Below are positions 898 through 32,590 of a stretch of 32,895 nt of DNA, piece by piece (within the stretch, counting starts at the first letter, position 1; each line of letters starts with the position of its first letter). The stretch lies in NCBI GenBank assembly GCA_021739695.1, contig JAIPBM010000036.1:1-32895 (forward strand). The letters are read 5' to 3'. Made by a program: the position numbers and the translations under genes. Below the pieces are notes generated by a model that saw nothing but the letters and a program-made list of their open reading frames with translations, was not told where the DNA came from and made no database searches. This stretch comes from Flavobacteriales bacterium. Its GTDB lineage: Bacteria; Bacteroidota; Bacteroidia; UBA10329.

Positions 898-970
898 GGT
901 GCTAAACTAAATAATCCTCGGCCTGTATCAATAAATTCTCCGCCTTACTTCGGCAGGCTCAGCACAGGCT

Positions 971-1164
971 GTTCCTCGGCACCTCCTTTATAAAGGAGGA
1001 CGGAGATCGTACATCTTTCAAAGGTCGGGAAACCAAACGCGGGCATTCTAGTCTTCTACCAACGCTTATCACCGCACTGCACCCCATCCCCCTTTCAAAG
1101 GGGGTGGCATCATGAAGCTTTAGCGGAATGATGACCGGGGATTTTGGTTGAAAAGAAATCCTCC
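971..1164. repeat. Long direct repeat, copy A, with two palindromes
   Basis: This 194-bp block matches 1806-1999 at an offset of 835 bp, with about seven mismatches by eye. It contains a perfect 18-bp palindrome at 982-999 (CCTCCTTTATAAAGGAGG) and a second near-palindrome at 1088-1104 (five C, TTTCAAA, five G). Together with copies B, C and D it fills the gene-free DNA on both sides of the DUF559 gene. I see no coding potential in it. Confidence 0.9.
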
Positions 1165-1349
1165 ACCTTACTTCGGCAGGCTCAGCACTGGCTGTGCCTC
1201 GGCACCTCCTTTATAACGTAGGACGGAGATCGTGAAGGTTTCATGCCTCAGCAGGTAAGAACAATAGTATCGTATTCCAATAAGTTTCAAAAATGCTCTG
1301 CACCCCATCCCCCTTTCAAAGGGGGTGCCCGAAGGGCGGGGGATTATCC
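1165..1349. repeat. Palindrome repeat unit, copy B
   Basis: This unit opens like copy A (the CTTCGGCAGGCTCAGCAC stretch, then a decayed first palindrome near 1205-1223) and closes with the second palindrome at 1309-1325, followed by GGGGGATTA. The DNA between the palindromes differs from copy A. The unit ends directly at the 3' end of the DUF559 gene. Confidence 0.8.
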
Positions 1350-1355
1350 ATGTGA

Positions 1356-1736
1356 TTACAAACGATCTTTCTCTTCAAAAGCCTCCACCCACCTATCAAT
1401 CTCCCAAACAACATTATCAAGATCAAACCTCGCCTGACTTTCGGTGAAACGGAGAAACGAGAGCCCCAATTCTTCCAAGATACGCTGCCTTTCCACGTCC
1501 TTTACCATGATCTCCTCAAAATGATGGCTTCCACCGTCAATCTCAATCACCAGATTCACGGGCTTGCAATAAAAATCAACGATGTAATTGCCCAGCGGCT
1601 TCTGACGGTTGAACGTATGTCCTCGAAGCTGCTTTTGTTTCAAGCGATTCCACAACAGGACCTCGCCTTTGGTAGAATGCATGCGCAACTGGCGCGAGAA
1701 CTCTTTGAGGTTCCTATTGTAGGGGATGAATTTCAC
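1356..1736 (-). CDS. DUF559 endonuclease-like protein
   Basis: This predicted 126-residue nuclease belongs to the DUF559 family, which has a very-short-patch-repair/restriction-endonuclease-like fold. From the GTG at 1736 it starts with the usual pattern of the family (MKFIPYNRNLKEF), continues with LRMHSTKGEVLLWNRLKQ at about residues 18-35, and has the likely active-site strands IVDFYC (Asp54) and LVIEIDGGSHH (Glu65, Asp67). It ends with LEELGLSFLRFTESQ and a terminal helix. The frame stays open upstream to 1922, but that part is translated palindromic repeat (copy C), so I prefer the inner GTG. No methyltransferase or other restriction gene is nearby; its neighbours are only repeats. What the nuclease cuts is unknown. 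Confidence 0.85.
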   Translation of the reverse strand: MKFIPYNRNLKEFSRQLRMHSTKGEVLLWNRLKQKQLRGHTFNRQKPLGNYIVDFYCKPVNLVIEIDGGSHHFEEIMVKDVERQRILEELGLSFLRFTESQARFDLDNVVWEIDRWVEAFEEKDRL

Positions 1737-1762
1737 AGTTTGAAGATAATAATCCCCCGTCT

Positions 1763-1999
1763 CTATCAATAAATCCTCCGCCTGTATCAATAAATCCTCC
1801 GCCTCGTTCCTCGGCACCTCCTTTACAAAGGAGGACGGAGATTGTACATCTTTAAAAGGTCGGGAAACCAAACGCGGGCATTCTAGTCTTCTACCAACCC
1901 TTATCACCGCACTGCACCCCATCCCCCTTCTAAAGGGGGTGGCATCATGAAGCTTTAGCGGAATGATGACGGGGGATTTTGGTTGAAAAGAAATCCTCC
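1763..1999. repeat. Direct repeat copy C with a 21-bp tandem at its edge
   Basis: Positions 1806-1999 are nearly identical to copy A at 971-1164. The first palindrome is at 1817-1834 and the second at 1923-1939. The edge next to the DUF559 gene (about 1763-1805) holds two tandem copies of the 21-mer ATCAATAAATCCTCCGCCTG, and the same 21-mer recurs at the start of copy D. Confidence 0.9.
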
Positions 2000-2176
2000 G
2001 CCTGTATCAATAAATCCTCCGCCTCGTTCCTCGGCACCTCCTTTACAAAGGAGGACGGAGATCGTGCGAATTTGCCAGACTTCCTAAACCGTAGATCTTA
2101 AGATTTTCCAATAAACTTGACTAAAGCACTGACGCCCATCCCCCTTTCAAACGGGGTGCCCGAAAAGCGGGGGATT
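2000..2176. repeat. Palindrome repeat unit, copy D
   Basis: This has the same architecture as copies A to C: the first palindrome at 2037-2054, a spacer of different sequence, the second palindrome with one broken arm at 2140-2156, and the closing GGGGGATTA. It leaves about 50 bp before the next gene. The whole 1923-2225 interval contains only repeat sequence and no recognisable gene. Confidence 0.8.
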
Positions 2177-2225
2177 ACTTCACCAAAACATTTAACTTGC
2201 CTCCACAACCTTAACACTAAAAACC

Positions 2226-28739: not shown

Positions 28740-28985
28740 ATGGCAACTTTCACAACCACGCTCCCAAACGACCTGCTTGAGCGTCTTTCGCAGAAGGCCG
28801 AAGAATACCACCTTGCCAAGAACAAGCTCATTGAAAAAGCGCTTCGCGTTTATTTGGATGAACTGACGAAAGCTGAGTATGCCAAGTCTTTCAAACGTGC
28901 AGTCAACGACCCTGATATGCTCTTGATGGCCGAAGAAGGTATGGCAGAGTACCTTAGACTACTTAACGAACTTGACGAAGAATGA
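28740..28985 (+). CDS. Ribbon-helix-helix antitoxin
   Basis: The 81-residue protein starts with the ribbon strand ATFTTTLPNDLLERLSQKA and continues with AEEYHLAKNKLIEKALRVYLDEL, the helix-helix part of a CopG/RHH fold that binds DNA as a dimer. The acidic C terminus (EEGMAEYLRLLNELDEE) probably wraps and blocks the MazF toxin. The stop overlaps the toxin start as ATGA, as in classic toxin-antitoxin pairs. Confidence 0.85.
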   Translation: MATFTTTLPNDLLERLSQKAEEYHLAKNKLIEKALRVYLDELTKAEYAKSFKRAVNDPDMLLMAEEGMAEYLRLLNELDEE

Positions 28986-29314
28986 AACAGGCAGAGGTTT
29001 GGCGGGCTTATCTTGACCCCACGGTGGGCAGCGAACAGAGTGGTTTGCGTCCTGTGGTAGTGATAAGTGGAAATACCATGAACGACCACTTCAACGTGGT
29101 CATCGTTTGTCCCATAACTTCTAAGCTCAAAAATTACAAAGGTCATGTGATCTTGGAACCCTCAGCTACAAACGGGCTTGACAAGAGATCGGAGATACTG
29201 AACTTTCATGTGCGTTCCGTTTCCAAAGACCGATTGGTGAAAAAGCTGGGAAGCATCTCCAAAGCCGAATTGGAATTGACCAAGAAGGGGTTGAATGAAA
29301 TTATGACGTTCTGA
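28982..29314 (+). CDS. MazF/PemK-type endoribonuclease toxin
   Basis: MazF-family toxins cut RNA at short sequence motifs. The 110-residue protein shows the family elements: KQAEVWRAYLDPTVGSEQSG, LRPVVVISGNTMN, VVIVCPITS, and LNFHVRSVSKDRLVKKLGSIS. It is the last gene of the first module; its stop is followed by the first copies of the island repeat. Confidence 0.9.
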   Translation: MKQAEVWRAYLDPTVGSEQSGLRPVVVISGNTMNDHFNVVIVCPITSKLKNYKGHVILEPSATNGLDKRSEILNFHVRSVSKDRLVKKLGSISKAELELTKKGLNEIMTF

Positions 29315-29571: not shown

Positions 29572-29877
29572 GTGGAATCTTTTAAGGACATCAGCAACAA
29601 ATTGTCAGAAGCCCTTCCGGCTCTGAAGAAGCGGTATCCTATTTCGTACTTGGCACTTTTCGGGTCCGTAGTGCGGTCCGATTTCAATGCACAGACAAGC
29701 GATGTGGATATTCTCATTGATTTTGATGGCGAGATGGGATGGGAATTCTTTGATCTGCAACAAGAACTGAAAGACCTACTCGGTCATGAAGTGGATCTGG
29801 TTTGCAGGCGGGCGCTGAAACCCCACTACTGGGAGATCATTAAAGAAGAGGTGGTCAATGTCGGTACGGCTGCCTAA
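29572..29877 (+). CDS. MntA-like nucleotidyltransferase antitoxin
   Basis: This 101-residue minimal nucleotidyltransferase has the motif GSVVRSDF at residues 31-38 and SDVDILIDF at 43-51, which fits the GSx10DxD active site. In HEPN/MNT systems such proteins neutralise HepT, in known cases by AMP-ylating the toxin. The start is GTG. The 3' end overlaps the toxin gene by 20 bases. Confidence 0.88.
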   Translation: MESFKDISNKLSEALPALKKRYPISYLALFGSVVRSDFNAQTSDVDILIDFDGEMGWEFFDLQQELKDLLGHEVDLVCRRALKPHYWEIIKEEVVNVGTAA

Positions 29878-30196
29878 GATCATTCTGCAAGATATGGTAG
29901 AGGCAGCCCAGAAAATACTGCTTTACGCGGATGGGCTTAGTTTCGAAGGTTTTGTTTCCGATGGAAGAACACGCGATGCCGTTTATCATAATCTGATCGT
30001 TCTTGGTGAAGCGGCAGGAAGGATGCCAGAAGTATATGTGCATGACCACAATGATATTCCGTGGCAGAAGATGATCTCAACCAGAAATGCGTTGGTGCAT
30101 GGATATGATGTAATTGACGATAGGATTGTTTGGAAGATCGTTACAGACATTCTCCCTGGTCTTTTAGAACAGTTGAATCCTTTATTGGAACCTTAG
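29858..30196 (+). CDS. HepT-like HEPN ribonuclease toxin (DUF86)
   Basis: The 112-residue all-helical protein carries the HEPN RNase motif RNALVHGY (Arg76, His81, Tyr83), placed after the family's IPWQKMISTRN. AVYHNLIVLGEAAGRMPE in the second helix is typical of DUF86. It pairs with the upstream nucleotidyltransferase. ATG start. Confidence 0.9.
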   Translation: MSVRLPKIILQDMVEAAQKILLYADGLSFEGFVSDGRTRDAVYHNLIVLGEAAGRMPEVYVHDHNDIPWQKMISTRNALVHGYDVIDDRIVWKIVTDILPGLLEQLNPLLEP

Positions 30197-32090: not shown

Positions 32091-32306
32091 ATGAACTTAC
32101 AGGCTGACATCAATTGGATCATGAAAGAGTTGCAGCAGGTCAACGACCCGCATTTGATCGAAGCGTTCAAGCAACTGCTTATTTACCGCAAGACCAAGAA
32201 CGAAAAAGCCTTCGATGAGGCATTTGAAAGGGCATTGGCGGATAAAGAGGCAGGAAGAGTTCTATCGCATGACGAGGTGCGTACCAAGTATGCCAAATGG
32301 CTCTAA
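32091..32306 (+). CDS. Antitoxin of a RelE/ParE-type pair
   Basis: The 71-residue protein is helical and charged. It has no clear DNA-binding motif, but its C terminus (ADKEAGRVLSHDEVRTKYAKWL) resembles small addiction-module antitoxins of the type that pair with RelE/ParE toxins. It overlaps the toxin gene by ten bases, which is the strongest evidence for its role. ATG start. Confidence 0.75.
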   Translation: MNLQADINWIMKELQQVNDPHLIEAFKQLLIYRKTKNEKAFDEAFERALADKEAGRVLSHDEVRTKYAKWL

Positions 32307-32590
32307 CGGTCCGTTGGACACAGGAAGCTGCCGATCAGCTTGATGGCATCATCGAATATCTGGAACTCAACTGGAGCAAGAAGGAGGTCAGAACGTTTTT
32401 CCGAAAGTTAGAAGAAGCTGTAAGATCAATTTCCGAACACCCCGATAGAAACAAACTATCAGAAAGAAAACCAGGAACGAGGGAGTATCAGTTGACGCGC
32501 CATACGACCATTTTCTATGATTTTGATGATGCACATGTCACCATTCTACTTCTTTGGCAAAATCTGATGAATCCGAAGAAATTGAAGTAG
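32297..32590 (+). CDS. RelE/ParE superfamily toxin
   Basis: The 97-residue protein fits the RelE/ParE fold: LTVRWTQEAADQLDGIIEYLE, then KVRT-type helix FFRKLEEAVRSISEHPDRNKLSE, then REYQLTRHTTIFYDFDDAHVTILLLWQN. The final strand with LLLWQN.MNP is characteristic of the superfamily. RelE members cut mRNA on the ribosome, ParE members poison gyrase; the sequence does not tell which. It is the second gene of the fourth module. Confidence 0.85.
   Translation: MALTVRWTQEAADQLDGIIEYLELNWSKKEVRTFFRKLEEAVRSISEHPDRNKLSERKPGTREYQLTRHTTIFYDFDDAHVTILLLWQNLMNPKKLK

Follow-up and report, generated by a model that had tools for sequence, protein, structure and literature searches.

The DUF559 locus and its repeat units

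The window (the whole stretch of DNA analysed here, 32,895 nucleotides of contig JAIPBM010000036.1 in the Flavobacteriales assembly GCA_021739695.1) carries a gene for a DUF559 nuclease, Vsr-like (EDxHD) and of the PD-(D/E)XK fold, placed between two pairs of composite palindromic units in the order U1-U2-gene-U3-U4 (Table 1). All four units follow one design: between an outer arm like AATCCTCCG at one end and one like CGGGGGATT at the other lie first an A-type and then a B-type hairpin, separated by a spacer. The outer arms of U2 and U3 adjoin the gene, one on each side, that of U2 at the gene's 3' end. U3-U4 is a duplicate of U1-U2, as reflected by direct repeats at 971-1168 and 1806-2003, which are 198 bp long, 96% identical and offset by 835 bp. 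Because a pair of complete units stands on each side of the gene, and one pair directly duplicates the other, at least one local duplication step must have occurred at this locus. The first-pass annotation of this DNA had described a DUF559 gene bracketed by units of two palindromes, two near-identical copies ("A" and "C") at an 835-bp offset, and an open frame reading upstream from the gene into copy C. We confirm each of these observations, the units being resolved here into U1 to U4, and the frame (1356-1922, 188 amino acids) starting at an ATG at 1922 inside copy C. This reading of the window's frame into the repeat is the intergenic counterpart of the in-frame insertions found elsewhere (see below).

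Table 1. Coordinates of the gene and of the repeat units in the window
Feature	Position	Strand	Components or basis
DUF559 (Vsr-like/EDxHD, PD-(D/E)XK fold) nuclease gene	1356..1736	-	Profile match, AlphaFold model, closest solved structures, conserved residues
Upstream continuation of the DUF559 reading frame, in frame across U3's A-type hairpin	1737..1922	-	ORF
Composite unit U1	930..1145	.	A-type hairpin 982-999 (CCTCCTTTATAAAGGAGG); B-type hairpin 1088-1104 (CCCCCTTT-AAAGGGGG); holds most of copy A
Composite unit U2	1153..1350	.	Decayed A-type hairpin 1205-1222; B-type hairpin 1309-1325 (CCCCCTTT-AAAGGGGG); outer arm GGCGGGGGATTAT
Composite unit U3	1745..1980	.	A-type hairpin 1817-1834 (CCTCCTTTACAAAGGAGG); B-type hairpin 1923-1939 (CCCCCTTT-AAAGGGGG); outer arm ATAATCCCCCGTC; holds most of copy C; 96% identity to U1 across 198 bp
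Composite unit U4	1988..2177	.	A-type hairpin 2037-2054 (CCTCCTTTACAAAGGAGG); B-type hairpin 2137-2153 (CCCCCTTT-AAAGGGGG); outer arm GCGGGGGATTA; counterpart of U2

The A-type palindromes are present beyond chance, since a 26-base A-type motif (up to three mismatches) has six copies in the 4.24-Mb genome, four of them clustered in the 1.2 kb of this locus, and the reversed control motif has none. The same genome contains three DUF559 matches, 68 hits to a generic hairpin pattern (two for its reversed control), and gene-less units of the window's design at other positions, for example at G000:C1:272367 and C7:145836. A search of plasmid records with the window's block returned no DNA match.

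The window protein matches DUF559 (PF04480) with an E-value of 2.9e-28 and 98.3 bits, against a curated cut-off of 20.6. Its AlphaFold model (pLDDT 90.6) is structurally closest to 3hrl, a DUF559 crystal structure, followed by the catalytic domain of I-Bth0305I (TM-score up to 0.79 of target) and more weakly by Vsr, a ranking with which profile searches agree (3r3p, I-Bth0305I, E-value 1.1e-5). The protein has the acidic and histidine residues that the whole family conserves, so that the EDxHD/Vsr-like fold is recognised in both the model and the sequence. A DUF559 gene has likewise been assigned to the EDxHD homing endonuclease family in a study of cyanobacteria (PMC9403480). Phage records contain only distant relatives, several of which are annotated as helicases.

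Apart from this locus, the window contains three tandem 42-bp repeats (CTCTGTTTGAGGGCTTTCGGGTACG...) at the contig edge (1-126) and two adjacent short genes at 29572-30196 that resemble, by eye, a nucleotidyltransferase/HEPN pair. Other possible toxin-antitoxin genes, also judged by eye, lie near that pair at 28982-29314 and 32297-32590.

Hairpins beside DUF559 genes

We define polar hairpins as those with the pyrimidine arm first, and our detector requires perfect arms. At 40 DUF559 loci of relatives, the density of polar hairpins is 3.67 per kb up to 150 bp from the gene and falls to 0.008-0.035 per kb beyond 2 kb. A hairpin lies within 350 bp of the gene in 168 of 205 DUF559 loci (82%), on both sides in 103, on one side in 65 and on neither in 37, and none of 75 control windows placed 3 kb from DUF559 contains one; several of these statistics rest on loci picked by match strength, and many of the genomes are metagenome assemblies. 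Hairpins number 2.56 per kb near DUF559, whereas intergenic DNA far from it has 0.143 and far coding DNA 0.040, which corresponds to a per-base excess of 18-fold over distant intergenic and about 64-fold over distant coding DNA. The first-pass annotation had named this statistical association as the point on which its reading should stand or fall, and the association holds. The 18% of loci that have no recognisable hairpin include ten DUF559 genes fused in frame to the start of HisF (L205, L224, L227, L228, L230, L250, L252, L277, L121, L138), several of them in Pedobacter and Mucilaginibacter, which are possibly fixed or domesticated fusions.

The hairpins that flank a given gene are also related to each other and to the nuclease. 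Left and right arms within a locus have a similarity of 0.744, compared with 0.536 (sd 0.014) in shuffles, and 25 pairs of left and right arms are identical where 1.5 are expected. The two hairpins are in inverted orientation in 59 loci and in direct orientation in 19. Nuclease and hairpin distances are correlated (Mantel r 0.28, 0/999), and the hairpin arm sequence thus tracks the nuclease lineage. A second purine arm, which would provide a third strand, follows on at least one side in 90 of the 103 two-sided loci according to a simple pattern, the window's own outer arms being degenerate. When several full DUF559 copies are present in one genome they are mostly diverged, with the exception of tandem duplicates, and for this reason recent dispersal of the coding form is not seen.

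At the genome level, hairpin density and DUF559 copy number increase together across 395 genomes of the class (Spearman rho 0.53; 0.03 for the reversed control pattern), and shuffling within taxonomic families did not reach the observed correlation in any of 2000 permutations. The median number of hairpins per Mb is 0.36 in genomes where DUF559 has no strong match, 1.76 for a single match, 1.90 for two or three and 15.9 for at least four; repeat abundance is therefore far from equal with and without the gene, the outcome that would have spoken against the first-pass reading. Eight genomes without a strong match carry at least 20 hairpins; among them are incomplete assemblies and three genomes whose only match is weak.

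The suggestion that such palindromes are widespread in the phylum is borne out, and their range extends well beyond it. A wider collection, scanned with a four-sequence DUF559 alignment, yielded 80 further DUF559 loci, of which 30 lie outside Bacteroidota (in Acinetobacter, Variovorax, Methylomonas, Chloroflexota, Planctomycetota, Cyanobacteria, Nitrospirota, Omnitrophota and a Methanophagales archaeon). The pairing of gene and hairpin also holds in Proteobacteria, Chloroflexota, Cyanobacteria, Planctomycetota and one archaeon; in these other phyla and the archaeon, hairpins occur at 3.92 per kb near DUF559, compared with about 0.03-0.05 per kb at 2-6 kb. Units outside the phylum read CCCTCACCCCAGCCCTCTCCC-N-GGGAGAGGGCTGGGGTGAGGG and close variants.

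Escherichia coli offers a well-annotated example. A BoxC element tabulated at 1,351,204-1,351,239 of the K-12 genome (PMC4666352), one of 23 K-12 copies, lies according to the K-12 annotation between fabI and ycjD, a DUF559 gene whose end reads RRSPSP-stop into a decayed hairpin. The ycjD gene is present in 3,364 of 5,426 E. coli genomes, and BoxC matches range from 1 to 27 per genome (median 15). The ycjD side of the locus is missing from one O157:H7 strain, and 12 BoxC matches are nonetheless counted in another strain of this serotype. Two E. coli strains that lack that side (L282 and L283) have an efflux operon in place of the sap operon upstream of fabI, a rearrangement at the BoxC/ycjD site.

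Insertions in conserved genes

In the set of relatives that was listed in full, about three in ten DUF559 matches fall within open frames longer than 300 amino acids; a further list of 78 loci is enriched for such cases, which were fetched on purpose. Hosts identified by Pfam include LeuS (two sites), IleS, MetH, RecG, RecJ, acetyl-CoA synthetase (Acs), HsdR, TsaD and methylmalonyl-CoA mutase, and DUF559 either splits a host Pfam domain or falls between domains of one host protein. The sites recur across families: before FTTRPDT and before MPGWAGSSW in LeuS, before DYIGAF and before ATVKGDVHDIG in MetH, and before HTQGSGKS in HsdR. The inserts measure about 140-200 amino acids and replace about 4-11 codons of host linker. 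We looked for a target duplication at the in-frame sites or a single fixed target motif and found no clean case of either. The inserted copies also keep the conserved acidic and histidine residues, which suggests that their nuclease activity may be maintained. An intein or intron reading of these inserts was rejected, since the frames stay open through them and Pfam detected no splicing domain in ten chimeric proteins, where DUF559 alone was found inside the host domains.

Empty sites, which the first-pass annotation had proposed to look for, are present in LeuS and MetH within genera. In two genera the same LeuS and MetH codons are either empty (with about 15 residues between the landmarks in LeuS), occupied by a short in-frame hairpin unit, or occupied by a full DUF559 element. 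At LeuS site 1 of one genus, the three states are represented by G195 (empty), G334 (short, CGCCCCCTCTCCTTCAGGAGAGGGCCGGGGTGAGGCA) and G070 (full). In the window's own genus, LeuS site 2 is empty in G003 and holds short units in G005 and in the window's genome (G000), while G008 carries full elements in LeuS and MetH, genes that are continuous in most congeners. G008 has no LeuS match other than the two halves of its interrupted gene, so that its LeuS is presumably a working protein with the insert in place. A gene of the PP2C/SpoIIE type in the window's genome also contains a short in-frame unit (L310, G000:C2:64388), at the very site where other genomes have a full DUF559 element (L045, L071, L124).

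Several further observations were made at or near such sites. Hairpin units lie inside open frames of 320-646 amino acids at three other loci of the window's genome (L314, L318, L306), one of them within a sequence that resembles a C-terminal sorting domain. LeuS site 1 holds in-frame repeats of a different kind (GGTTCAAGGTTCAAGG-like) in L173, L184, L185 and L189, so that this loop is a hot spot not confined to a single repeat family. At LeuS site 2, L189 (G007) has an unrelated, hairpin-free in-frame insert of about 50 amino acids where its congeners hold hairpin units. Finally, a MetH match of 40% identity at G002:C1:109531-111324 (L163) is interrupted by 13 TGA, 3 TAG and 3 TAA codons and is not a normal ortholog.

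Interpretation and comparison with known systems

The association of DUF559 genes with hairpins, and their mobility, are well supported. We consider it probable that the window locus belongs to a palindrome-ended mobile element, a two-part system organised like REP/RAYT in which a Vsr-like nuclease replaces the transposase. The locus would be a coding copy of this widespread element, its ends being pyrimidine-first hairpins with an added purine strand, that is, of the BoxC/PIT/intrastrand-triplex class, and the gene-less short units would be its far commoner non-autonomous form, as REP is to RAYT. We infer that the DUF559 nuclease processes or spreads the palindromes, by an enzymatic step in which it would recognise or cut the hairpin ends and/or a target lacking the unit, after which host repair or replication may copy the unit into the new place. 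Where the new place is a loop of a conserved gene that tolerates insertions, survival would be limited to copies that keep the frame, and these would be translated as an unspliced extra domain.

The main rival is that the hairpins spread otherwise, through replication slippage, template switching or another enzyme, and that DUF559 is a homing-type selfish gene landing in them. The short units do far outnumber the nuclease (68 pattern hits and three genes in the window's genome), tandem duplications occur, and at some loci, including the window's, complete units enclose the gene and turn their outer arms towards it. Yet within families hairpins increase with the number of DUF559 copies, each nuclease has its own matched and mostly inverted pair of ends, and hairpin sequence follows nuclease lineage, so that we regard this explanation as unlikely. 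Still less probable, in our view, is homing of the full element at conserved loops, which would account for the recurrent in-frame sites, with the gene-less palindromes as decayed remnants that are not separately mobile. It would fit the structural proximity to the homing endonuclease I-Bth0305I, the decayed ends seen at some occupied sites (L150, L182), and a tree, many of its forks unresolved, in which a single clade holds most in-frame DUF559s and copies from the same insertion site group together more than under label shuffling. The same tree gives no single origin per insertion site, LeuS site 1 alone needing seven changes, and the short units are intact hairpins at many unrelated loci rather than ragged deletions.

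Two other accounts fare worse. Caulobacter VsrA, a DUF559 protein, is functionally linked to a cytosine methyltransferase (PMC12907096), and by extension DUF559 could be a housekeeping mismatch-repair nuclease, as proposed for VsrA, with the hairpins as ordinary terminators or regulatory structures. We find this very improbable given that the hairpins lie on both sides, also occur within coding sequences, are matched to one another and multiply genome-wide as DUF559 copies increase; neither the patchy presence of the gene nor its insertion into unrelated genes fits such a role. A local accident, in which intergenic repeats were duplicated in tandem around a functionally unrelated gene, would account for the 835-bp direct duplication in the window, but it is rejected and deserves next to no credence, as the pairing recurs in 168 of 205 loci across phyla with a sharp contrast between near and far hairpin densities.

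Returning to the palindrome-ended element, our results suggest that DUF559 spreads a repeat family of hitherto unexplained origin. A broader claim, to which we would give close to an even chance, is that these elements form a class of bacterial and archaeal mobile DNA in its own right, in which a single Vsr-like nuclease spreads hairpin/triplex units, including into essential genes as an unspliced domain, and from which the BoxC/PIT/TM repeats, those of E. coli among them, originate. If DUF559 is the engine, a multi-phylum family of dispersed repeats gains a mechanism, directly testable in E. coli K-12 with ycjD and its BoxC copies, and a large family of unknown function gains a candidate role. 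The in-frame form would then be selfish DNA that persists unspliced within essential proteins, and it would offer a natural route by which proteins gain inserted domains.

BoxC, PIT and triplex repeats have been known since the 1990s. The DUF559-associated hairpins share with these BoxC/PIT/TM (potential intrastrand triplex) repeats a pyrimidine arm, a loop, a purine arm, a short loop and a second purine arm, a design that takes the form CCCTCTCCC-N-GGGAGAGGG-TTA-GGGTGAGGG in BoxC; the pyrimidine and purine arms next to DUF559 are likewise G/C-rich and at least 7 bp long, and a second purine arm is likewise found. BoxC/PIT copies are dispersed and linked to genomic variability, and an intrastrand triplex has been demonstrated for the E. 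coli sequences (Holder et al. 2015, PMC4666352), to which the units described here are likened by sequence. No mobility gene was reported near the E. coli repeats in that study (PMC4666352), nor is a coding partner described in the papers that we found, whereas here DUF559 is the partner; our units also differ in occurring in frame within genes and in having lineage-specific arms, such as those of the window. We found no paper in the open-access literature that connects DUF559 to these repeats.

Other systems resemble the element in part. Rickettsia palindromic elements (RPEs) insert in frame into protein-coding genes, as do the short palindromic units in LeuS, MetH and PP2C. To our knowledge, RPEs come without a nuclease gene and have been described only from Rickettsia and its relatives; the DUF559 elements differ in having a coding form and a range that spans phyla. 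Inteins with homing endonucleases likewise place a nuclease in frame inside essential genes, with a patchy presence in relatives, but the inserts studied here measure only about 140-200 amino acids, and Pfam detected no Hint/splicing domain in the ten chimeric proteins. Classical insertion sequences and MITEs differ in that the element contains no transposase and shows no target-site duplication at the in-frame sites. With I-Bth0305I (EDxHD) and Vsr, DUF559 has in common the fold, a sequence relation and recurrent insertion at conserved gene sites. I-Bth0305I is described as an intron-borne phage enzyme with long DNA-binding regions (PMC3943268), whereas the DUF559 element has one compact protein domain and hairpin ends, and no intron or intein was found.

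The likeness to REP sequences and their RAYT transposases, but with a PD-(D/E)xK-like nuclease in place of the transposase, had been noted from the layout of the window, and this analogy is borne out. As in REP/REPIN and RAYT (TnpA-REP) systems, short palindromes are dispersed, their sequence is lineage-specific, and a scarcer coding gene lies between inverted palindromes that match the dispersed copies. The difference lies in the enzyme, which is an HUH/Y1 transposase in RAYT and a Vsr-like PD-(D/E)XK nuclease here, and in the many copies that stand in frame in conserved genes. The closest analogies are REP/RAYT in organisation and the homing endonucleases in enzyme.
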